From NCBI RefSeq assembly GCF_003033885.1, contig NZ_CP024081.1:3089723-3100032 (forward strand): a DNA stretch of 10,310 bases, read 5' to 3'. The position numbers and the translations under genes were made by a program. Below the pieces are notes generated by a model. That model did not search any database. It had not been told where the DNA came from and saw nothing but the letters and a program-made list of their open reading frames with translations. This document shows, in pieces, positions 1-10,268 of this stretch (the stretch's first letter is position 1; each line of letters starts with the position of its first letter). Source of the DNA: Pseudomonas rhizophila (GTDB lineage: Bacteria; Pseudomonadota; Gammaproteobacteria; Pseudomonadales; Pseudomonadaceae).

Positions 1-3000
1 AACCTGGCCGGTGAACCGCTGAAGCAAAGCCTGGTGGATGCGCTGTATCAGCACCCCATCGGTGGGAGCGAGCCAGTGGAAGCAAAACCAGTAGGAACAG
101 AGCCTGTGGGAGCAAAGCTTGCTCGCGATAGCATCCTATCGGCTGGCCCATGTGTAACTGACCCACCGCCATCGCGAGCAAGCTTTGCTCCCACAGACTG
201 TGCTTCCACAGGAGTGCTCCCACAAGGGATTGAGCACGTCTACGACCTTTACGGCCCCTCGGAAGACACCACCTATTCCACCTGGACCCGCCGCACTGCC
301 GGCGGCACGGCGAACATCGGCCGGCCCGTCAAGCACACCGCCAGCTACCTGCTCGACGCCGACCTGCAAGCGGTGCCCCAGGGCGTTTCAGCCGAGCTGT
401 ACCTGAGCGGCGCGGGTATCACCCGTGGCTACCTCGGCCGCGCCGCGATGACCGCCGAGAAGTACGTACCCAACCCGTTTTCCACAACCGGCGAACGGCT
501 GTACCGCACGGGTGACTTGAGCCGTTATCGCGCCGATGGCGTGCTCGAGTATCAGGGCCGCATCGACCATCAGGTGAAGATCCGCGGCTTCCGCATCGAG
601 TTGGGAGAAATCGAAGCACGGCTGCTGCAGCAACCCCAGGTGCATGATGTAGCGGTGCTGGCCCAGGACGCTCCGGGCGGTCAGCAACTGGTGGCCTACG
701 TGGTTGCTTCGGCGTTGCAAGCGGACGAAAGCAGTGCGCGCGCCCAGCTCAAGGCAGGCCTCAAGGAGCATCTGCCCGACTACATGATCCCGACGCACCT
801 GTTGTTCCTCGAACACCTGCCCCTGACGCCCAACGGCAAACTCGACCGCAAGGCCCTGCCAGCCGTGGATACCGGGTTATCGCAAAGTGGTTACGAGGCA
901 CCCGAGGGTGAGCTGGAGCAACAGATTGCCGGTGTCTGGCAAGAGGTGCTGGAGCTGGAACAGGTCGGTCGCAACGACCACTTCTTCGAGCGCGGTGGTC
1001 ACTCATTGCTGGCGACCCAGGCCGTTTCACGCTTGCGTAAGCTGACCGGCTATCCGCTGAGCCTGCGTGACCTGTTCGATCATCCGCAGCTCAAGGCGCT
1101 GGCGGCGCTGATGGCCGGCTCCGTCGATGGACCGGTCCGGGCGAGCGATTCCCGTGGGGTGTGGCTCCAGGCCCATGGGCCACGCCGTTCCGCGCCGCTG
1201 TCGTTGGTGCAGCGACGTTTGTGGGTCGCCGAACAATTGTCCGGCGGCACTTCGGCGTATGGCATGCCCATGGCGCTGCGCCTGTGCGGCGAGTTGTCGG
1301 TGGAGCGTCTGATGAGCAGCTTTGCCGACGTGGTACGCCGTCATGACGTATTGCGCACTGCGTATCGCCAAAACGAAGAAGGGGATCCGATGGCGCTGAT
1401 TGCCGATGAGGTCCGACTGGACTTCCCGGTGATCGACCTGTCTGGTCTGTCGCCCAGTGCCCGGCAGGAACAGGTGGCCCAGGCGACGCTGGAAAATGCC
1501 CGCACCCCGATCGATCTGGAGCAGGCACCGCTGCTGCGCGGGCGGATTCTGCACCTGGGGCCGACCGAACATGTGTTGCTCTACGCCATGCATCACATCA
1601 TCTCCGATGGCTGGTCGATGGGGCTGCTGATCAACGAACTGGTGCAGGTCTACGAGGCATCCCTCAAGGGTGAACCGATGCCGTTGGCGCCCCTGGAGAT
1701 TCAGTACCATGACTTCGCCTTGTGGCAGCAGGCGCTGGAAGAGCAGGGCGTACTGGCGCGTCAGGCTGACTACTGGAAACACCGGCTCAGTGGCTACGAG
1801 GGGCGCCTGAACCTGCCGCTGGCCCGTCCTCGGGGCCAGACCGCTTCCTATGACGGCGATGCGCTGCAGTTCCAGCTTCCCACCGGGCTGACCGCGGCCT
1901 TGCGCCGGTTGTCCAGCGAAGCCGGGGTCACGCTGTACAGCACGCTGCTGGCGTCCTTCCAGGTGTTATTGCATCGGGTTAGCGCTGCGCAAGATCTGGT
2001 GGTTGGCGCCGACGTGGCCGGTCGTGAACAGCCGGAGCTGGAGCGGCTGATCGGTTTCTTCGTCAACGTGCTGCCCCTGCGTTCGCGCTTGGACGCCGGT
2101 GCCACGTTCGCAAGCTTTTTGGCGAAAACCCAGGACAACCTGCTTGGCGCCCTGGAGCATCAGGACTTGCCGTTCGACCAGATTGTCGAGGCCTCGGGCG
2201 TGCCACGACACAAGGGCATGAATCCCTTGCTCCAGGTGTTGTTCGTGATGAACAACGTGCCGGTGCGCACCCGCTCCATAAAGGGGTTGAGCGTGGAATT
2301 GCTGCCGGCGTTGGAGACCCATTCTAAATTCGACATGGCGTTGTTCGTTGACGAAGAAGAAGGGCAATTGCGCGGCACTTGGCAATTCGCCACAACCTTG
2401 TTCGGACATGAGCACATTCAGCACCTGATTCAGGCCTGGACCGCCCTGTTGGAACAGATCGTCGCTGATCAGGACATTCAATTGGGAGCTATCAGCATGC
2501 CAGTCGACAACTTGGCGGCCGCCGCCAAGCCTGCCACCGTCCCGGGGCCCAAGGCCGATAAGCTGGGCAAGTTTCTCAAACGCTCGGTGACACCGCTCGC
2601 CAAGCCTCGACCGGCGCGGGTGCGTGAATCACTAGTGGCAGCACCGCAGCGATTCCCGTTGATGCTGGAGCCGGGTGAACCCCAGCTGGATGTCATCGAG
2701 TGGATTCATCAGAACCGGCCGCTGATCGAGCAAAAGCTGGCCGAACATGCGGGCATTCTGTTCCGCGGTTTTGAACTGGATGGCATCCAGGGCTTTGAAG
2801 CGTTCGCCGAAGCGATCCAGCCCGGCCTTTATGGTCAGTACGGCGATTTGCCGAAGAAGGAAGGGGGCAAGAACACCTACCGTTCCACGCCGTACCCGGA
2901 GCGCAAGATGATTCTGTTCCACAACGAAAGCTCCCATCAGGACCGCTGGCCGCGCAAGCAGATGTTCTATTGCGAGCAAGCCGCGCCTGTGGGCGGTGCG

Positions 3001-3642
3001 ACTCCAGTGGTGGATTGCCGGTTGATGTACGAAAAACTGCCGTCGGACCTTCGCGAGAAGTTCGAAGACAAAGGGCTGCTGTATGTGCGCACCTTCACCG
3101 ACAAACTCGACGTGTCGTGGCAGCACTTTTTCAAGACCGAGGACCGCCGCGAAGTTGAGGCCCGGTGTCGGGCGGGCGGTATCCAGTGGCGCTGGCTCGA
3201 CAACGACGAGTTGCAGACCCGCACACCGGGGCCGGCGATCATCACGCACCCGATCACCGGGGAGAAGTCGTTCTTCAATCAGGTGCAACTGCATCACATC
3301 TATTGGCTGGAGCCGGATGTGCGGGAGGACCTGCTGTCGATGTTCGGTCTGGAGCGCATGCCTCGGCATGTGTATTACGGCGATGGCTCACCCATCGAGG
3401 ATGAGGTGATGGCGCGCATCGGTGATTTGTATGAAGCCTGTGCGGTGCGTTTCGACTGGCGCAAGGGCGATGTGATCCTGCTGGACAACATGCTGGTGGC
3501 CCACGCCCGCGACCCGTTCGAGGGCCCCCGCAAGATCGTGGTTGCCATGGGCGATATGTATGAGCGCAGCGCGCTGGAGGGCCAGGTCGATGCCGGGGCC
3601 GCCATCCAGGGCATCCGCAACCTGGAGGAAACCGGAGCATGA
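1..3642 (+). CDS. NRPS, 3' part: A(partial)-T-C-(Asp beta-hydroxylase)
   Basis: The 5' end lies outside the window: the frame is open from base 1 and begins inside an adenylation domain (NLAGE, bases 1-15), so no start codon is assigned. 1213 residues are visible. In order: A-domain C-terminal half with A5 DLYGPSE (244-264), A7 YRTGDL (502-519), A8 from GRIDHQVKIRGF (556 on) and A10 NGK with its lysine at 838-840; a carrier domain with GGHSL, phosphopantetheine serine at 1003-1005; a condensation domain (about 1180-2480) with intact HHIISDG at 1591-1611, GFFVNVLPLR and YHDFALW; then a proline/alanine-rich linker and a hydroxylase domain. Visible pocket residues at GrsA positions 299, 301, 322, 330 and 331 read N, A, L, T, Y, reminiscent of alanine-type codes (tentative). 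Odd: a 57-codon repeat-derived insert just before A5. No A or T follows the C domain; these are on the next gene, which overlaps by 4 bases. Confidence 0.95.
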   Translation, partial: NLAGEPLKQSLVDALYQHPIGGSEPVEAKPVGTEPVGAKLARDSILSAGPCVTDPPPSRASFAPTDCASTGVLPQGIEHVYDLYGPSEDTTYSTWTRRTAGGTANIGRPVKHTASYLLDADLQAVPQGVSAELYLSGAGITRGYLGRAAMTAEKYVPNPFSTTGERLYRTGDLSRYRADGVLEYQGRIDHQVKIRGFRIELGEIEARLLQQPQVHDVAVLAQDAPGGQQLVAYVVASALQADESSARAQLKAGLKEHLPDYMIPTHLLFLEHLPLTPNGKLDRKALPAVDTGLSQSGYEAPEGELEQQIAGVWQEVLELEQVGRNDHFFERGGHSLLATQAVSRLRKLTGYPLSLRDLFDHPQLKALAALMAGSVDGPVRASDSRGVWLQAHGPRRSAPLSLVQRRLWVAEQLSGGTSAYGMPMALRLCGELSVERLMSSFADVVRRHDVLRTAYRQNEEGDPMALIADEVRLDFPVIDLSGLSPSARQEQVAQATLENARTPIDLEQAPLLRGRILHLGPTEHVLLYAMHHIISDGWSMGLLINELVQVYEASLKGEPMPLAPLEIQYHDFALWQQALEEQGVLARQADYWKHRLSGYEGRLNLPLARPRGQTASYDGDALQFQLPTGLTAALRRLSSEAGVTLYSTLLASFQVLLHRVSAAQDLVVGADVAGREQPELERLIGFFVNVLPLRSRLDAGATFASFLAKTQDNLLGALEHQDLPFDQIVEASGVPRHKGMNPLLQVLFVMNNVPVRTRSIKGLSVELLPALETHSKFDMALFVDEEEGQLRGTWQFATTLFGHEHIQHLIQAWTALLEQIVADQDIQLGAISMPVDNLAAAAKPATVPGPKADKLGKFLKRSVTPLAKPRPARVRESLVAAPQRFPLMLEPGEPQLDVIEWIHQNRPLIEQKLAEHAGILFRGFELDGIQGFEAFAEAIQPGLYGQYGDLPKKEGGKNTYRSTPYPERKMILFHNESSHQDRWPRKQMFYCEQAAPVGGATPVVDCRLMYEKLPSDLREKFEDKGLLYVRTFTDKLDVSWQHFFKTEDRREVEARCRAGGIQWRWLDNDELQTRTPGPAIITHPITGEKSFFNQVQLHHIYWLEPDVREDLLSMFGLERMPRHVYYGDGSPIEDEVMARIGDLYEACAVRFDWRKGDVILLDNMLVAHARDPFEGPRKIVVAMGDMYERSALEGQVDAGAAIQGIRNLEETGA
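62..120 (+). repeat. Degenerate 14-15-bp tandem REP heads, left flank
   Basis: Four successive units start at 62 (GTGGGAGCGAGCCA), 76 (GTGGAAGCAAAACCA), 91 (GTAGGAACAGAGCCT) and 106 (GTGGGAGCAAAGCTT). The mirror side has three inverted heads at 187-194, 202-209 and 216-223, two of GCTCCCAC and one GCTTCCAC, also 14-15 bp apart. Because 15 bp is five codons, the translated left flank is itself a degenerate pentapeptide repeat: GSEPV, EAKPV, GTEPV, GAKLA. The last unit is the left arm of the REPIN. Confidence 0.8.
105..195. repeat. REPIN (paired inverted REP) inside the NRPS gene
   Basis: The 25 bases at 105-129 (starting TGTGGGAGCAAAGC, ending GCTCGCGAT) are the exact reverse complement of 171-195, with a 41-base spacer. 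The arms differ only at the AAA/CGA position from the REPs at 10045 onward, so they belong to the same family. Pseudomonas REPINs are non-autonomous elements thought to be mobilised by RAYT (IS200-like Y1 transposase) proteins and are normally intergenic. In mRNA or single-stranded DNA this copy would form a very stable 25-bp stem inside a coding region. Confidence 0.93.
2640..3590 (+). other. TauD/SyrP-like beta-hydroxylase domain fused to NRPS C-terminus
   Basis: This is the last third of the first NRPS protein, not a separate gene. It has the TauD-family layout: GILFRGF near the start, then the iron-binding H-x-E in FHNES (His 2920-2922, Glu 2926-2928), the distal His in VAHARD (3502-3504) and the 2-oxoglutarate-binding Arg in GPRK (3529-3531). 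SyrP and related siderophore enzymes hydroxylate the beta carbon of carrier-bound Asp, using Fe(II), O2 and 2-oxoglutarate; related subtypes act on His. The Asp code of the next gene points to Asp. Many relatives are stand-alone proteins; here the enzyme follows the C domain after a linker of about 50 residues (KPATVPGPK...KPRPARVRES), which resembles the N-terminus of a formerly separate protein. Assignment to the interface-dependent subtype is inference from the partner domain. Confidence 0.88.
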
Positions 3643-6600
3643 ACGAGGTATTGATGGACCAGCAGGACCCCGGCTTTGCCTTGACCCCCGAGCAACAAGC
3701 GATGCTCGAACAACTGTCGAGCACGGCGACCTGTGGCGAAGCATTGCGTTGGCTGAATGTGGTCATCGACGGCGATCTCGATCCGCAGCGATTGCAGATC
3801 GCGTTCGATACGCTCCTGGCACAGCAGCCAATGCTGCTGGCGCGGCTGGACAAAGTGGCCGGTTTCCACGGCTTGCGTCAGGTCGCCAGCGGCGCCGCTC
3901 GTTTCCCGCTGACGATACAGGCAGGCGAGCAACGGACCGAGGATGTCCAGGCGCAGATCAAGGATTCGCTGGGCTGTGCTTTTGTGGTGGGCGAATCGCC
4001 AAACGTCCAGGCCGTGCTTTATCGTCTGGCGCCGCAGCAATGGCAACTGGTGCTGGGTATCGCTCGCTACAGTGCCGATGCGCAATCGCTGAATCTGCTG
4101 CTGGAGCAAGTCCAGCAAGCGTACGCCGCAGTTCAGGCGTCGGAAGACGAAGCACCGGGCGAGTTTGCCCAGTACCTGGAATGGCGCAGTGAGGTGGTGC
4201 TTGATGAAGATGCCGCCACCGGACGAACCTATTGGCAGCATTACCTGCAAGGCGTGCAGACGGACATCGCCACACCGTGGTTGGCTGCGCGCAGCGCCGG
4301 CAGTGAGACGGGGGCCGCTGATACCTGTGTGTCGCTGACCCTGGAGCCGGCCCAGCGCGATGGGTTGCAACGGTTGGCCGAGCAGCTCGATCAGCCGCTT
4401 GCCACGCTGCTGCAAGGCGCATGGTGGGTGTTGCTGGGACGTTTGAGCGGCCTTGAGCAGGCGCTGGTGGGCGTGCGTCATGACAGCCGTGGCGACTATG
4501 AATACTTCGCCAATGCTGTGGGCGTGTTCGAGAAAACCCTGCCGCTTAGCGTTTCATTGCCCGCGACGGTGTCGTTCAGCGAGTGGCTGGACGAGCTGGC
4601 GGCGCGTCTGGAAGCCCATCGCACCTGGCAGGAATACTGGGCGCCGGAACTGTCGCCTGAGGCGGCGCGCCCGGCCTACGGCTTTACGCTGGGGCAGGCT
4701 AACCGGGCCGGCAACAGTGGCGGCCTTAACTGGGCTGTTGCAGAGTCCGTGCGGGTGCCGGCAGATCCATTCGAGTTGCTGTTGCAGGTGCAATTGAACG
4801 CTGCCCAGCAGCTTGCCGCGGTCAATCTGCATTACGCCAGCTCGCGTTACTCGCCGGCCTCGGCCAGCGCCGTGTTGGAACAGTACGGCGTGCTGTTGGC
4901 GTCGATCCTTGCCGCTCCACACACCGCATTGGCGCGGCTCGATCTGTTGAGTCGCACCGCAGAGCAGCGCTTGCTGGCAATCAACCCCGCCATGCACGCG
5001 TTAGCTGATGGCCGTTATCTGCCGCAGCGCATCGCCGATCTGGCGTCGCATACACCGAACGCCATTGCCCTGACCGACGCCCGTCAGCAAATGAGCTACG
5101 GCCAGTTGCAAGCCCGGGTCGACAGCATGGCGCAGGGCCTCAAGCAGCAAGGCGTGGGCGCCGGTTCGATGGTCGCGCTGGCGTTGCCGCGCTCGGTGGA
5201 TCTGGTGATTGCAATGCTGGCGAGCTGGCGCCTTGGTGCGGCGTATCTGCCCCTTGATGTGCAGTGGCCCCAGGCGCGTCAGGCGTTGATGCTGGAACAG
5301 GCCGGCGCGGCGTTGTTGTTGACCGATGCGGCGCATCTGCCGGCCTGGCAGGATCAGCCGTATAAGGCGCTGACCGTGGCTGAGCTGAGCCATCCGGCTA
5401 CGCCACTGCCGGCGCTCGCCACCCAGGGCAACGATATCGCCTATGTGTTGTTTACCTCCGGCTCCACCGGTGTGCCCAAAGGCGTGGTGATCGAGCATCG
5501 GCAACTGCTCAACTACACCGCCCAGGCCAGTCAGGCGCTGGGGCTTGCCCAGTGCAAGAACGTCGGTTTCAGTTCCAGCGTGGCGGCGGACCTGGGTAAT
5601 ACGGCGTTGTTTGGCGCGTTGTTCAACGGCGCGACCCTGCATGTGGCCAGCGATGAGCTGATGCAGGACGGCGTGTTGTTTGCCCAGTACCTGCAACAGC
5701 AGCAGATCGACTGCTTGAAAATCGTGCCCTCGCACCTCGCGGCGCTGCTCGACGGTGAACGGGCGCTGCTGCCGGGCACCCTGGTGCTTGGCGGTGAGCC
5801 GATTGCGCCGACCTTGGTCGAGCGCATCGCCCGGTTGCGCAGCGATTGCCGGGTGTTCAACCACTACGGGCCGACCGAAGCCACGGTGGGGGTGATGATT
5901 CATCCGCTGTCTCTGAACGGCGCGGCCAGCGACTGTTCGGCGCTGACCCAGGTGCTGGGCAACAACCAGGTTTACGTGCTGGACGCCGATCTGCGTTTGG
6001 CACCGGTGGGCGTGCTGGGTGAGGTGTACCTGGGCGGAGCGCAGTTGTGCCGGGGCTATCTTAATGCCGAGGCCGATGCGCAGGCGTTCATCCAGAGTCC
6101 CTTTGATCCGGCGCAGCGGTTATATCGCACCGGTGACCTGGCGCGTTATCGGCCGGACGGGGCGATCCAGCTATATGGTCGGCGCGATCAGCAGGTCAAG
6201 GTGCGTGGGTTCCGTATTGAACTGGCGGAGATCGAGGCCGTGCTGGTGCGCATGCCGCAGGTGGCCGAAGCATTGGTGTTGCCGGCAACGTCGGTCGAGC
6301 AGGGGCTGTTGGCCTTTGTCGTGGCGCAGCAGGGACTGTCGACGGGCTTGCTCGACGCCGCGCGCGCTGAGCTGAGCGCCCGCTTGCCCAGCGTGATGGT
6401 GCCGCAGCACGTGCATCTGATCGAACGATTCCCGCGACTGGCCAACGGCAAGATCGATCGCCACGCACTGCAGCAGTTGGCGGTGGCTACAGCGGACGAT
6501 GAAGACGCCGCGCCACGCGATGCGCTGGAGCAATTGCTCGCCGCGCGCATGGCGCAGTTGCTTGGGCTTGAGCGATTGGGCATCGATCGCGACTTCTTCG

Positions 6601-6869
6601 CCGCCGGAGGTCATTCGTTGCTGGTGATCAAACTGGTGGCCGGTATTCGCAAGTTGTTGCAGTGCGAAATTCATCCGGGACTGGTCTTCGATCATCCGAC
6701 CGTGGCGTCGTTGGCCCTGGCCTTGCGGGCGCTGGAGAGCAGTCCGGGGCAATTGGAAAAAATGGCCCAGGTGCGCCTGAAAATGGAGGCGATGAGTCCC
6801 GAGGAAAAGGCCCTCCTGACCGAACAGGCTCGGCAGCTGCAAGCCGCCAAGGCGGCCCAAGGCAGCTGA
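3639..6869 (+). CDS. NRPS: interface(C-like)-A(Asp)-T
   Basis: 1076 residues. ATG overlaps the upstream TGA (ATGA), and GGAGGA lies about 9 bases upstream, so this start is preferred over the in-frame ATG at 3654; translational coupling is likely. Domains: condensation-like residues ~15-440; adenylation ~455-945 with LFTSGSTG (604-611), NHYGPTE (741-747), GRRDQQVKVRGFRIEL (from 847) and NGK with Lys938; carrier with GGHSL, Ser993. Aligning by eye to GrsA, the specificity residues are D651, L652, T655, K694, V716, G718, H742, V750, G751 and K938: DLTKVGHVGK, a standard aspartate code. The chain ends about 80 residues after Ser993 in a charged tail (MSPEEKALL...) with no C, E or TE domain, so transfer must go to another protein. 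It is the Asp-loading half of a module whose C domain and hydroxylase sit on the preceding protein. A strong terminator follows. Confidence 0.95.
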   Translation: MNEVLMDQQDPGFALTPEQQAMLEQLSSTATCGEALRWLNVVIDGDLDPQRLQIAFDTLLAQQPMLLARLDKVAGFHGLRQVASGAARFPLTIQAGEQRTEDVQAQIKDSLGCAFVVGESPNVQAVLYRLAPQQWQLVLGIARYSADAQSLNLLLEQVQQAYAAVQASEDEAPGEFAQYLEWRSEVVLDEDAATGRTYWQHYLQGVQTDIATPWLAARSAGSETGAADTCVSLTLEPAQRDGLQRLAEQLDQPLATLLQGAWWVLLGRLSGLEQALVGVRHDSRGDYEYFANAVGVFEKTLPLSVSLPATVSFSEWLDELAARLEAHRTWQEYWAPELSPEAARPAYGFTLGQANRAGNSGGLNWAVAESVRVPADPFELLLQVQLNAAQQLAAVNLHYASSRYSPASASAVLEQYGVLLASILAAPHTALARLDLLSRTAEQRLLAINPAMHALADGRYLPQRIADLASHTPNAIALTDARQQMSYGQLQARVDSMAQGLKQQGVGAGSMVALALPRSVDLVIAMLASWRLGAAYLPLDVQWPQARQALMLEQAGAALLLTDAAHLPAWQDQPYKALTVAELSHPATPLPALATQGNDIAYVLFTSGSTGVPKGVVIEHRQLLNYTAQASQALGLAQCKNVGFSSSVAADLGNTALFGALFNGATLHVASDELMQDGVLFAQYLQQQQIDCLKIVPSHLAALLDGERALLPGTLVLGGEPIAPTLVERIARLRSDCRVFNHYGPTEATVGVMIHPLSLNGAASDCSALTQVLGNNQVYVLDADLRLAPVGVLGEVYLGGAQLCRGYLNAEADAQAFIQSPFDPAQRLYRTGDLARYRPDGAIQLYGRRDQQVKVRGFRIELAEIEAVLVRMPQVAEALVLPATSVEQGLLAFVVAQQGLSTGLLDAARAELSARLPSVMVPQHVHLIERFPRLANGKIDRHALQQLAVATADDEDAAPRDALEQLLAARMAQLLGLERLGIDRDFFAAGGHSLLVIKLVAGIRKLLQCEIHPGLVFDHPTVASLALALRALESSPGQLEKMAQVRLKMEAMSPEEKALLTEQARQLQAAKAAQGS
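3681..4960 (+). other. Interface-type condensation domain lacking HHxxxDG
   Basis: The N-terminal ~440 residues of the second NRPS look like a condensation domain in outline (LRWLNVVIDGDLD, a YLEWR segment and a YWQHYL segment). At the active site, residues 142-148 read ARYSADA where HHxxxDG is expected: both histidines are gone and Gly is Ala, with only Asp147 kept. Family knowledge: interface domains are a C-domain subgroup that accompany certain siderophore Asp/His beta-hydroxylases and are required for hydroxylation of the bound residue rather than for condensation. Placement directly ahead of an Asp A domain, next to a hydroxylase-bearing gene, fits this well. An alternative is simply a degenerate C domain. 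Confidence 0.8.
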
Positions 6870-6898
6870 CATGGCATGAACAAAAAGGCCTTTTTTAA
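6860..6898 (+). repeat. Gene-end duplication, left copy with collapsed terminator
   Basis: AGGCAGCTGACA, containing the stop codon of the second NRPS, continues TGGCATGAACAAAAAGGCC and T6AA. The same series recurs at 7018-7079 with a few changes. In this left copy the terminator stem is missing: AAAAAGGCC runs straight into TTTTTT (6882-6896), as if the GC stem-loop had been deleted, so it should not terminate well. Confidence 0.75.
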
Positions 6899-6902
6899 GT
6901 TC

Positions 6903-7012
6903 TCGTTCCCCCGCTCTGCGTGGGAATGCATTCCGTGACGCTCTGCGTCACCTTCCAGGGGCGGAACGCGAAGCGTCCCTGGCGGCATTCCCACGCGGGA
7001 GCGTGGGAACGA
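6903..7012. repeat. 110-bp palindromic repeat element
   Basis: The left arm 6903-6929 (TCGTTCCC...GGGAATGC) matches the reverse complement of 6985-7012 apart from one substitution and a T versus CC difference. Inside are a perfect 7-bp hairpin, GTGACGC/GCGTCAC (6935-6941 with 6945-6951), and a CCAGGG/CCCTGG pair (6955-6960 with 6977-6982), so the element can fold into a branched cruciform. From memory, such TCGTTCCCACGCTC...GGGAACGA elements are common between Pseudomonas genes; copy number cannot be tested here. It belongs to a different sequence family from the REPINs. Confidence 0.82.
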
Positions 7013-7017
7013 TCGAA

Positions 7018-7079
7018 AGGCAGCTGACACTCGCATGAAACAAAAGGCCGGCGCCCCTCTGCGCCGGCTTTTTTTTAAC
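7018..7079 (+). repeat. Gene-end duplication, right copy with intact terminator
   Basis: AGGCAGCTGACA, then CTCGCATGAAACAAAAGGCC, repeats the stop-codon region of the second NRPS 158 bases downstream of the left copy. The two copies differ by about three single-base gaps and one substitution over ~32 bases, and this one continues into a complete terminator. The palindromic element lies exactly between the copies. Confidence 0.75.
7047..7076 (+). terminator. Intrinsic terminator of the NRPS operon
   Basis: Perfect 8-bp stem GCCGGCGC (7047-7054) / GCGCCGGC (7061-7068), loop CCCTCT, followed directly by eight T. It lies about 180 bases past the NRPS stop because the palindromic element separates them. 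It should isolate the NRPS transcript from the receptor gene, which therefore needs its own promoter. Confidence 0.93.
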
Positions 7080-7088
7080 TTTTTTCGC

Positions 7089-7109
7089 GAATGATAAATA
7101 AACTCATTC
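7089..7109. promoter_or_regulatory. Candidate Fur box
   Basis: A 21-bp imperfect palindrome with perfect 6-bp arms GAATGA and TCATTC around an AT-rich centre. The core TGATAAATAAACTCA agrees with the 7-1-7 Fur motif TGATAATnATTATCA at 10 of 14 defined positions. It is an AT-rich island between a GC-rich terminator and a GC-rich leader, about 255 bases ahead of the receptor start. Iron repression of a siderophore receptor is expected; the site itself is a by-eye match. Confidence 0.45.
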
Positions 7110-7353
7110 CGGTTTTTGGCAGGTGCTGCGTCTTACTTAGGTATGTGGACAAATCGGGTCGGGCAGGACGCTCAGGCACCGGATGTGTTCAGCAAAAATT
7201 TCGCCGTCGTCCAGCCGGATGACCGTGCCCGGGGAGGGGCCGGTCGGCCCCGCACTGACACATTGCCCTTGGGGCAATCGACCGTGCGGGTTCTCTCGTG
7301 CTGGCGAGCGGCGGGCCCTTCGGCCCCATGGACTTTTACTTCTACCAATAATA
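7110..7353 (+). other. Hairpin-rich leader ahead of the receptor gene, no gene seen
   Basis: I see no supportable gene here. Three short inverted repeats follow one another: GGGGCC/GGCCCC (7236-7241 with 7246-7251, 4-base loop), ATTGCCC/GGGCAAT (7262-7268 with 7272-7278, 3-base loop) and GGGCC/GGCCC (7313-7317 with 7322-7326, 4-base loop). None is followed by a T run. The receptor frame stays open upstream to 7183, but that stretch encodes a basic, proline-rich sequence ahead of an obvious signal peptide, so it is not counted as coding. No confident -35/-10 or ECF promoter was identified. Confidence 0.5.
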
Positions 7354-7358
7354 GAGAG
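7354..7358 (+). promoter_or_regulatory. Ribosome binding site supporting the 7363 start
   Basis: GAGAG ends four bases before ATG 7363, a short spacing. A competing site, AAGG at 7396-7399, lies eight bases before the in-frame ATG 7408 (MSRGLRSRR). Both starts leave a usable signal peptide, so the start could be 15 codons further in. Confidence 0.45.
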
Positions 7359-7362
7359 CACG

Positions 7363-9831
7363 ATGTCATCCATTCATGAGTTGAAACCTCTGTTCAAGGC
7401 ACTCGTCATGTCCCGCGGCCTGCGTTCGCGTCGGGTGTTGACCGGTCTGGGGCTGGTCTGCCTGCTGCCACTCAGCGCTCAGGTGATGGCTGAAGACGTC
7501 AGCATCGACATCCCTGCGCAATCGCTGCCCCAGGCACTGCAAGCGTTCGGTCAGCAGACCAACCAGCAAGTGATCTACAACGCCGGCGATATGGCCGGGC
7601 TGAAAAGCAACCGCGTCAGCGGCAAGATGAGCCCGCAGGCGGCCCTCACCGAATTGCTCAAGGGCACGGGGGTGCGGTACAGCGTTGAGGGCAATACCCT
7701 GATGCTGCTGCGCGGTTCTGCCACTGGGTCCCTTGAGCTGGGCGCGACCACCGTCAAGGCACAGGAGCTGGTTGCGACGACCGAAGGCAGCAAGTCATAC
7801 ACCAGTAACGCCGTGACCATCGGCAAGGGCACCCATACCCTCAAGGAAATTCCTCAGTCGATCACCGTGATGACGCGTAAGCAGATGGATGACCAGAACC
7901 TGGTCAACCTCAAGGACGCCGTCAACCAGACCACCGGCATCGTCGGCCTGCAGGGCGTTGGCCAAGGCATGATCCTGTCGTCACGCGGCTTCCAGATCGA
8001 CGATTGGCAATACGATGGTGTGCCGATCCTGCGTAACAATTATTCGCTGGGCAACTGGGCGACCCAGGACCTGATCTTCTTCGACCGCCTGGAAATCATG
8101 CGCGGCGCCTCCGGCCTGCTGCAAGGCACCGGCAGTCCCGGTGGTGCCGTCAACCTGGTGCGCAAGCGTGGCCAGAACGCACCGACCGTGACCCTGACCG
8201 GCAAGGCCGGCTCCTGGGATCACTACGGCCTGCAACTGGACGCTGGCGGCCCGCTGAACCAGGCCGGCAACATCCGCGGTCGCATCGTCGTCGACGAAGA
8301 CCAGAGCAATTCATTCGTCGACCATGCGTGGAGCAAGACTCACTCGCTGTACGGCGCGCTGGACGTCGACCTGAGCGAAGACACCACCCTGGGTTTCGCG
8401 GTCAGCCAATCCAACGGCGAATCGCGGGGCAACATCCGCGGCCTGCCACGCTACGCCGATGGCAGGATGCCGGACGTGTCGCGCTCGACCTACACGGGGG
8501 CGCGCTGGAACCGCTCCGAAATCGACGTCACCACCCTCTACGCCGATCTGGAGCACCGCTTCAATGAGGACTGGGCGTTCAAGGTCGGCGCGGTGCACAT
8601 GAGCGAAGACAACCAGGCGAAAAACCAGCGCGTCCAAAGGGGAGGTGGTCTCCTGCCTGATGGCAGCGGCGTGCAATATGCCGACTTCCTGACCGATTTC
8701 CAGTCCACGAAGGCCGGTCTCGACATGAACCTGACCGGCAAGTTCGAAGCCTTGTCGATGGAGCAGGAAGTCATGCTGGGCGGCAACTACTCCCAGCTGG
8801 AAACCGATGACCGCTACGCCCGTACATTCAACAACACCAGCGACTCCATCTTCGACATCGACAATGACCGTCCGGACATCAGCTACGACAGTTTGATCGC
8901 CGCGGGTGGCCAGGGCACCCTCAGCAAATACGATATCCGCCAGAAGGGCGTGTACGGCACCTGGCGCGTCAAGCCGGTGGACGATCTGACGCTGGTGCTG
9001 GGTTCCCGGGTCAGCTGGTATGACTACAGCTACAAGTCGAAAACCGAAAACTCAGCCGGTATCACAGGCAACGCGCCAAGCACCGGAACTGAAACCGGAG
9101 TGGTCACGCCCTACGCGGGCATCATCTATGACCTGAGCCGTGAATGGGCCGTGTATGCCAGTTATACCGACGTGTTCCAGCCGCAGACCAATCGCGATGC
9201 CAACGGTTCGGTGCTCAAGCCGATAGTCGGCACCAACTACGAAGTCGGCCTCAAGGGCGAGTTGATGGACGGTCGGGTCAATACCTCCCTGGCAATCTTC
9301 CGCTACGACCATGAGAACCGTGCCATCAACGACGGTGGTTCGGGGTGTGGCGGCTCGGGTTGCTCGGTAGCCTCGGGCAAAGTGCGCAGCCAGGGTATCG
9401 ACGCCGAAATCAGTGGTGAAGTGATAGACAACCTGCAGCTGTTCGCGGGTTACACCTACAACACCACCAAGTACCTGGAGGACCCGGACAATGAAGGGAG
9501 TATTTTCAGCACCTGGACGCCGAAACACATGCTGCGCGTGTGGGGCAACTACCAGTTCACCGGCGACTGGAGCCGTGTCAGCACCGGCTTGGGCTTCACC
9601 AGCCAAAGCCACACGATGGTTTACGACTACGATCGTGAAGTCCCGGGTTACACCGTATGGAACGCCCGCGTCGGCTACCAACTGACGTCGGAAATCGCCT
9701 TGGCGGTCAACGCCAACAACCTGTTCGACAAGACGTACATTACGTCCGCCTACAACCAGCTCAATGGCAACAACAACTTCGGTGATCCACGCAACCTGAT
9801 GTTCAGCGTGACGTACAAACCGCAGTTCTGA
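7363..9831 (+). CDS. TonB-dependent siderophore receptor with STN signalling domain
   Basis: 822 residues from ATG 7363. A basic N-terminus (RGLRSRR) and hydrophobic core (VLTGLGLVCLLPLSAQVMA) form a signal peptide, probable cleavage after VMA. Residues ~48-105 are an STN domain (SIDIPAQSLPQAL, QVIYNAGDM, LLKGTGVRYSVEGNTLML), the periplasmic module of FpvA/FecA-type transducers that contacts an anti-sigma factor. The plug follows (EIPQSITVMTRKQMDDQ, GFQIDDWQYDGVP, EIMRGASGLLQGTGSPGG), then a ~22-strand barrel ending in a C-terminal Phe (FSVTYKPQF). VYASYTDVFQPQ and KPIVGTNYEVGLKGE are typical of ferric-siderophore receptors. A loop contains two close cysteines (GSGCGGSGCS, about 9340-9369). 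It lies downstream of the NRPS operon beyond a terminator, so it is probably its own unit, taking up the cluster's ferric product. Exact ligand, and the matching sigma/anti-sigma pair, cannot be seen here. Confidence 0.95.
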   Translation: MSSIHELKPLFKALVMSRGLRSRRVLTGLGLVCLLPLSAQVMAEDVSIDIPAQSLPQALQAFGQQTNQQVIYNAGDMAGLKSNRVSGKMSPQAALTELLKGTGVRYSVEGNTLMLLRGSATGSLELGATTVKAQELVATTEGSKSYTSNAVTIGKGTHTLKEIPQSITVMTRKQMDDQNLVNLKDAVNQTTGIVGLQGVGQGMILSSRGFQIDDWQYDGVPILRNNYSLGNWATQDLIFFDRLEIMRGASGLLQGTGSPGGAVNLVRKRGQNAPTVTLTGKAGSWDHYGLQLDAGGPLNQAGNIRGRIVVDEDQSNSFVDHAWSKTHSLYGALDVDLSEDTTLGFAVSQSNGESRGNIRGLPRYADGRMPDVSRSTYTGARWNRSEIDVTTLYADLEHRFNEDWAFKVGAVHMSEDNQAKNQRVQRGGGLLPDGSGVQYADFLTDFQSTKAGLDMNLTGKFEALSMEQEVMLGGNYSQLETDDRYARTFNNTSDSIFDIDNDRPDISYDSLIAAGGQGTLSKYDIRQKGVYGTWRVKPVDDLTLVLGSRVSWYDYSYKSKTENSAGITGNAPSTGTETGVVTPYAGIIYDLSREWAVYASYTDVFQPQTNRDANGSVLKPIVGTNYEVGLKGELMDGRVNTSLAIFRYDHENRAINDGGSGCGGSGCSVASGKVRSQGIDAEISGEVIDNLQLFAGYTYNTTKYLEDPDNEGSIFSTWTPKHMLRVWGNYQFTGDWSRVSTGLGFTSQSHTMVYDYDREVPGYTVWNARVGYQLTSEIALAVNANNLFDKTYITSAYNQLNGNNNFGDPRNLMFSVTYKPQF

Positions 9832-10044: not shown

Positions 10045-10134
10045 TGTGGGAGCGAGCTTGCTCGCGAAAGCGGCGGGTCAGCTTGCGAGGATGTTGGATG
10101 TGCCGACGTCATCGCGAGCAGGCTCGCTCCCACA
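10045..10134. repeat. REPIN copy 1 of the downstream array
   Basis: The left REP at 10045-10067 (TGTGGGAGCGAGCTTG, then CTCGCGA) faces an inverted REP at 10112-10134 that is complementary at 22 of 23 bases (AGG in place of AAG in the right arm). Total 90 bp with a 44-base spacer. It is the same family as the element inside the NRPS gene. Confidence 0.93.
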
Positions 10135-10178
10135 TGAGTTTGCTGGTGTCCTCAGCATCTGCAAACGACACAAAAACC

Positions 10179-10268
10179 TGTGGGAGCGAGCTTGCTCGCG
10201 AAAGCGGCGGGTCAGTTTGCGTTGATGTTGGATGTGCCGACGTCATCGCGAGCAAGCTCGCTCCCACA
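10179..10268. repeat. REPIN copy 2 of the downstream array
   Basis: The arms 10179-10201 and 10246-10268 are perfect 23-bp reverse complements. Length, spacer and sequence match copy 1 apart from a few substitutions, and the left arm is identical to that of copy 1. Confidence 0.93.

Follow-up and report, generated by a model that had tools for sequence, protein, structure and literature searches.

An adenylation (A) domain of a pyoverdine-type non-ribosomal peptide synthetase (NRPS) was found to contain a REPIN that is translated in frame, with a core of 89 bp at 106-194 and arms complementary at 24 of 25 positions. The frame stays open through the insert, which confirmed the central claim of an earlier note on the same DNA, and REP-derived inserts occupy the same site in 16 copies from 13 Pseudomonas genomes, in 13 distinct lengths ranging from +27 to +76 residues. 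We consider it very probable that a REPIN entered a loop of one pyoverdine A domain, was tolerated there, subsequently grew through a nested REPIN and 15-bp units, and was homogenised between modules. The stretch of DNA analysed, hereafter the window, comprises 10,310 nucleotides (G000:C1:3089723-3100032) of a genome represented by a single 5.95-Mb scaffold.

On its plus strand, the window encodes the 3' part of an NRPS gene (1..3642), in which a partial A domain is followed by T, C and TauD-family domains (Pfam AMP-binding, AMP-binding_C, PP-binding, Condensation and TauD), the next NRPS gene with a C-A-T organisation and 1076 aa (3639..6869), and a TonB-dependent receptor with STN, plug and barrel (7183..9831), which we take to be FpvA-like. 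From inspection of the neighbouring pvd-like genes, we assume that the cluster is directed at pyoverdine. The A domain matched PF00501/PF13193, in line with the AMP-binding fold of an NRPS A domain, and the core motifs A3, A5, A7, A8 and A10 were invariant in 43 sequences, four of which bear an insert. The intergenic stretch between the NRPS and receptor genes (6870-7120) appeared by eye to be rich in inverted repeats, with a GTTCCCACGC-like repeat, a terminator-like hairpin and a T run.

The REP-derived insert covers 58..225 (plus strand; 168 bp or 56 residues, with ends uncertain by a few bases) and splits the A-domain run into LVDALYQHP on one side and IEHVYDLYGPSE on the other. Its upstream border was set by the A-domain segment NLAGEPLKQSLVDALYQHP at 1..57 (plus strand), based on an alignment to 11 orthologous segments and on a spacing count, while downstream the insert ends eight residues before the A5 core motif YGPSE (250..264, plus strand), which was located by translation and lies in invariant columns of the alignment. 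The placement in the segment leading to A5, as proposed earlier, was correct. Counted beyond the 23-residue spacing from LAGE to VYD/FD, which is the plain spacing in 122 of 140 loci, the insert amounts to 56 residues; the earlier estimate of about 57 residues and 171 bp was right about extra residues in frame and slightly off in their number.

The type-B REPIN core (106..194, plus strand) was delimited by inverted repeats and RNA folding and consists of a left arm (106-130), a spacer (131-169) and a right arm (170-194). It is preceded by three 15-nt REP-head units on the plus strand (61..105; 61-75, 76-90 and 91-105), with the outer head GTGGGAGC at 62-69 inside the first unit, and followed by two reverse 15-nt REP-head units annotated on the same strand (195..224; 195-209 and 210-224), with the outer head GCTCCCAC at 216-223 on the right side of the insert. 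What had been described as a REPIN with degenerate REP heads is therefore a REPIN indeed, and the supposedly degenerate heads are these 15-nt units, the outermost of which resemble the ends of another REPIN type. Inverted repeats extend beyond the core, with arms of 84% complementarity at 88-132/168-212 and 73% at 62-106/179-223, and the RNA fold of 58-231 reached -97.4 kcal/mol (z -9.3), which none of 200 shuffles equalled or surpassed. Arms and fold show that two inverted REPs share one hairpin, as expected of a REPIN. The second hallmark, a head highly repeated in the genome, was likewise found: the exact type-B head occurs 107 times in its own genome (reversed control 0), and related head types occur there in 134, 949 and 45 copies (reversed-pattern controls 0), the type with 949 copies being the commonest of the four counted. 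The usual extragenic location does not apply, the element lying within the NRPS frame. A search of Rfam at gathering thresholds returned 0 matches. Past the receptor gene and before the next gene, the window also contains a pair of type-A-like REPINs in the usual intergenic setting (10046-10267). They have similar spacers and a repeated tail and offer a natural comparison for the intragenic copy.

Analysis of 140 loci with the flanking motif, a count in which some genomes appear twice and from which locus L090 was omitted as the motif used is absent there, revealed the plain 23-residue spacing in 122, inserts in 16 and a spacing of 22 residues in two. This orthologue alignment had been suggested as a check, and it showed most loci without the extra residues; orthologues free of the REP thus exist, as in REP-decorated proteins. 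Where orthologues do carry a loop, it is REP-derived, and the conserved non-REP loop named as a possible refutation was not what these loci contained. The A-domain family itself was present in 144 of 398 genomes of the genus (protein census, E<=1e-30). Twelve carriers came from 20 re-examined genomes and the thirteenth from a family-level draw; the 13 carrier genomes are a lower bound, since not all the remaining genomes of the 144 were inspected individually, and the figure of 2/398 from the family-level draw is no frequency, as known carriers were missed there, probably owing to the eight candidates per genome taken at first look. Carrier genomes include P. thivervalensis DSM 13194, P. tehranensis SWRI196, P. 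brassicacearum subsp. brassicacearum CCUG 51508 and subsp. neoaurantiaca CDVBN10, and strains RGM2987 and K18, with P. ogarae, P. hefeiensis, P. alvandae and Pseudomonas sp. St316 added by protein record.

Among the 120 proteins listed, 23 with chain lengths of 4,132-4,572 aa carry a total of 26 inserts, each between 11 and 96 residues long. The exact insert of the window recurs in the cluster representatives P0046 (4172 aa) and P0050 (4551 aa), which match both modules of the window's cluster; their 90%-identity clusters have 32 and 14 members, with the insert read in the representatives only. Two REP inserts per chain, located in different modules about 3,000 residues apart, were found in P0001 (P. 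brassicacearum), P0002 and P0005. In P0109, a much reduced insert of +11 residues at about 3778-3812 reads SQLPQGAGSLPVGGG and is perhaps a decayed remnant. A phage or plasmid origin was considered and rejected: megablast against phage records gave no match, and among the 20 plasmid records listed of 65 matching, none covered 80% of the query, with 18 of these 20 matches annotated under NRPS or adenylation genes.

All 16 insert copies are free of stops in the coding frame, and the REP is read through in each of them, again as in REP-decorated proteins. In the alternative frames, stops occur in 11 of 15 copies (frame +1) and in 15 of 15 (frame +2). For 13 of the 16 genome copies, the surrounding frame stays open over 3,080 aa or more; G290, for example, has frames of 4266 and 4567 aa, and G267, G210 and G298 have frames of 4264, 4234 and 4202 aa, respectively. 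Two of the other three copies belong to G153, with frames that reach the contig or locus end, and the third is the window's own 1618-aa frame.

Comparison of the inserts revealed two REPIN types at this site. Type A measures 87 bp and starts in codon phase 1 (8/8 phased), type B measures 89 bp and starts in phase 0 (4/4), and in type B the flanking 15-nt units on both sides restore the frame. All 12 phased cores share a single orientation and a single inner frame. As the outer heads of type B occupy the positions where type-A ends would be, the anatomy is nesting-like and looks like that of a second REPIN inserted into a first. One 15-nt unit corresponds to five codons, and in P0001 the one insert is distinguished from the other by a single such pentapeptide together with two adjoining substitutions. 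Insert identities within one protein were 0.98, 0.93 and 0.87, and those between proteins 0.53-0.87, the highest of which equals the lowest within-protein value. Because inserts within one protein are more alike than most inserts between proteins, the data point to homogenisation between modules. The second copy of G153 (L174) combines a type-A left head with a spacer starting like type B (GATGGCGTCC) and is possibly a recombinant of both types.

In a tree of the upstream flank (600 bp; G689 omitted for its short flank), 15 carrier rows and four non-carriers form one clade (SH-aLRT 99), within which all carriers of the tree fall and on which the carrier label requires four changes, two of them forced by well-supported branches. 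Because the carriers share this clade, a single gain with later losses fits the upstream tree. The downstream flank does not group the carriers and requires at least three changes; recombination has therefore cut through the region, which blurs the picture of a single origin. The non-carriers within the upstream clade are two loci of SI8 as well as G112 and G160, both with plain spacing, and for the latter two a loss or replacement would be needed. Strain SI8, which has been assigned to the P. corrugata subgroup (PMC8461476), adjoins G153 in this clade, and its loci L079 and L080 are distinct from each other (39 mismatches in 1.2 kb around the site). Both read TAC-CCACAGGG at about 760-800 with a spacing one residue short, an apparent in-frame deletion scar of the insert, because the right end of the REP has seemingly been left behind.

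The arms are complementary at 23-24 of 25 positions in all 13 cores measured, a count made without G125, which has no full core, and without G153b. In the left arm of type A, synonymous changes numbered 0 of 154 site-pairs (pS 0.000) at a pN of 0.09, and the right arm gave a pS of 0.05 and a pN of 0.07. The type-A spacer reached a pS of 0.429 and a pN of 0.319 (pN/pS about 0.74), and the type-A flanks a pS of 0.32-0.38 and a pN of 0.03-0.05; throughout these comparisons, the pN/pS pairs are non-independent and site numbers small. Only 3 of 266 flank windows of eight codons had synonymous changes as few as the type-A left arm, i.e. none (G689 omitted from the window test). For type B (four sequences; pair counts without G000a and G290b), the left arm showed a pS of 0.075, the right arm 0 and the spacer a pS of 0.31 and a pN of 0.18; as 20 of 266 flank windows lie at a pS of <=0.08 and six at 0, the freeze of the type-B arms appears weaker. 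Flank pN/pS in carriers was 0.07-0.15; dN/dS medians were taken without G000a, and the non-carrier flank dN/dS was obtained ungapped, which means that indels may inflate it. Overall, the protein encoded by the spacer appears nearly free to change and the arm DNA appears to be held constant and complementary. Because the spacer is almost unconstrained while the arms hardly change synonymously, we read the loop as tolerated and the DNA palindrome as kept.

The REP type at the locus tracks the REP population of its own genome (permutation p 0.00035 over 13 genomes, without control for phylogeny; typed from the left arm in G210 and G268 and from a partial core in G125). The locus type is common in the same genome, yet it is the commonest of the four types in 5 of 13 genomes only. 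Genes for Y1 transposases (RAYT-class) were found in all three carrier genomes searched. The constancy of the arms is compatible with selection for the palindrome, with re-insertion and with gene conversion that draws on the hundreds of copies in the genome.

Within the window's own assembly, the insert is present twice in the cluster (genome positions 3078441 and 3089723, 98% identity over 571 bp). Upstream of the window, a frame break at 3088580-3088592 divides the synthetase whose 3' part the window contains: frame 2 up to 3088592 corresponds to residues 1-2997 of the G290 orthologue and frame 1 from 3088580 onwards to its residues 2962-4567, and a stretch equivalent to about 36 residues thus recurs out of frame at the break. 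Likewise outside the window, the A domain of the sister module (about 3078440) is some 93 residues short. N bases lie 0.04-0.9 kb from these lesions, occurring within each of the two near-identical modules (3077520-3078480 and 3089342-3089722), and a gap of 100 N is located 40 kb upstream; the window itself contains no N. Because counterparts of the broken synthetase and of the short A domain are intact in other records and N bases lie near the lesions, we think that assembly trouble is a likelier cause than real decay. The earlier impression of a cluster without visible decay accordingly applies to the window and fails upstream of it, at the frame break and the short sister domain. Automatic gene or assembly correction could mistake inserts of this kind for errors.

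These lesions, together with an insert only eight residues ahead of A5, could be taken to mean that the enzyme is crippled, the cluster decaying and the open frame a product of chance or recency, which corresponds to the "silently crippled" synthetase of the earlier note. We regard this as very improbable, as 13 insert lengths in 13 genomes are every one in frame, the flanks are under purifying selection, the identical insert stands in proteins of 4172 and 4551 aa, and the N bases within 0.9 kb of the lesions point to assembly trouble between near-identical modules; the long open frames, the flank selection and the exact insert in long proteins led us to reject it as the main reading. The chance that a misassembly pulled the REPIN into the gene is negligible: the suspicion might arise because the assembly was built by scaffolding, has N bases within each of the near-identical modules and contains a gap of 100 N at a distance of 40 kb, but the window is free of N, and inserts at the same site in the independent assemblies of P. 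thivervalensis DSM 13194, P. brassicacearum CCUG 51508 and P. tehranensis SWRI196 exclude such an artefact for the insert. The other option of the earlier note, an enzyme that tolerates a REP-encoded loop, is by comparison favoured by the long open frames, the flank pN/pS of 0.07-0.15, the invariant motifs and the pyoverdine of P. ogarae F113, and on these grounds the loop is apparently tolerated.

Two further explanations concern how the insert arose and why it persisted. Repeated independent insertions at one hot spot, as opposed to one ancestral insertion, would account for the two REPIN types at the site, for their agreement with the REP population of each genome (p 0.00035, phylogeny not controlled) and for the split of the carriers on the downstream tree. 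Such repeated entry would, however, hardly be expected to give one orientation and one inner frame in 12 of 12 phased cores, outer heads retained in type-B inserts at the type-A place, type-B spacers that look alike across species by eye, and carriers that cluster on the upstream tree, and we judge it unlikely. The persistence of the loop across a subgroup and the recurrence of pentapeptides in type-B inserts (PVGAK and APTG, for example) are what one would expect if the loop were adaptive, contacting a neighbouring domain or a partner protein, and selected for its amino acids. A pN/pS of about 0.74 in the type-A spacer, non-synonymous change in the arms about equal to or above that of the flanks with hardly any synonymous change, a length range of +27 to +76 and the existence of non-carriers within the clade that manage without the loop speak against this proposal, which we consider improbable.

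For the preferred explanation, a tolerated and later enlarged insertion, the following course is conceivable. In an ancestor of the P. corrugata/brassicacearum subgroup, a REPIN, i.e. a non-autonomous palindromic element spread by RAYT transposases, would have been inserted in one pyoverdine A domain, into the loop that precedes the strand running towards A5. Orientation and phase would have yielded an open frame, and a loop rich in proline, glycine and alanine would therefore have been gained without destroying the enzyme, to be kept by the lineage. Later, a second REPIN type would have nested inside the first, leaving the outer heads behind, 15-bp REP-head units of five codons would have been gained and lost without a frame shift, and copies in separate modules of one genome would have been homogenised through recombination. 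Of this course, the shared site, the frame and its openness, the nesting-like anatomy, the clade restriction on the upstream flank, the likeness of copies within a protein and the near-frozen arms are observed, whereas a single insertion, the involvement of RAYT and the retained activity are presumed. Within the A-domain core, the insert presumably forms a loop that links two elements of secondary structure, because of its place between the AGE helix and A5 and in view of the A-domain fold. In the region of the insert, several of the matches to solved NRPS structures are interrupted (not mapped residue by residue), and AlphaFold2 models of two carrier A domains (L077 and L073), of low confidence with mean pLDDT values of 49.6 and 56.2 and hence given no weight, show coil at the insert. 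Regarding function, P. ogarae F113, the type strain of its species (PMC8461476), is reported to make pyoverdine (PMC10707752, PMC3986905), and P. ogarae synthetases contain the insert, as read from P. ogarae protein clusters rather than from F113's own gene; a study on the pyoverdine of P. thivervalensis is cited by PMC11366639.

In a further reading, which we advance tentatively and with considerable doubt, the site may be a living member of each genome's REPIN population within a coding gene, because the locus type tracks the genome, the arms are synonymously near-frozen, copies within a protein are alike and the flank trees differ. Gene conversion or the activity of RAYT would then renew the arms from the current REP types of the genome, or hold them to these types, while the palindrome might serve as a recombination site at which A-domain halves near A5 and whole modules are exchanged, feeding pyoverdine diversity.

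The significance of the tolerated insert lies in a mobile element that is housed in the coding frame of a megasynthetase for an iron-scavenging compound, occupies a single site throughout a subgroup of soil bacteria and has remained palindromic. Because the synonymous sites of the arms are near-frozen while the amino acids are free, protein and DNA constraint can be separated, and why REP arms resist change becomes testable. It also shows that the amount of insertion an NRPS A domain tolerates beside A5 can be tested, which would be useful for NRPS engineering.

Among known systems, the REPINs of Pseudomonas resemble the window element as inverted REP doublets with a hairpin and a high genomic copy number (PMC3116915). 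In SBW25, REPs are almost all extragenic, with 14 of 1,067 top 16-mers overlapping genes (Bertels & Rainey 2011, PMC3116915), whereas the window element is translated; the earlier remark that such elements are normally intergenic was accordingly right, although in-frame intragenic REPs had already been described (PMC3733652). Di Nocera et al. (2013, PMC3733652) reported GTAG/CGTC REPs and REP dimers in frame inside ORFs, adding 20-30 residues and 43-82 in clusters, and suggested that in such "REP-decorated" proteins the REPs sit in linkers or loops. These cases share with the NRPS insert the in-frame position within ORFs and differ in that they come from several taxa and include many DNA-repair and RNA genes; neither "pyoverdin" nor "non-ribosomal" occurs in the main text of PMC3733652, and a clade-wide, nested series in several modules, as found here, is not described in the text consulted. 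The Rickettsia palindromic elements (RPE; PMC3733652) are palindromic repeats in frame within conserved proteins. Their host is different and the likeness is drawn from their description, and in contrast to RPE the window element belongs to the REPIN population of its host genome and its arms stay palindromic. The pyoverdine NRPS A domains of the P. fluorescens complex treated in PMC11366639 represent the same gene family and evolve by domain recombination, with no REP insert reported for them in the text consulted. Among the titles and abstracts listed in searches of open-licence literature, none reported a REPIN inside an NRPS A domain. Judged by these sources, REPs inside genes were already known (Di Nocera et al. 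2013, PMC3733652), whereas one that is clade-wide and renewed within an NRPS is new.
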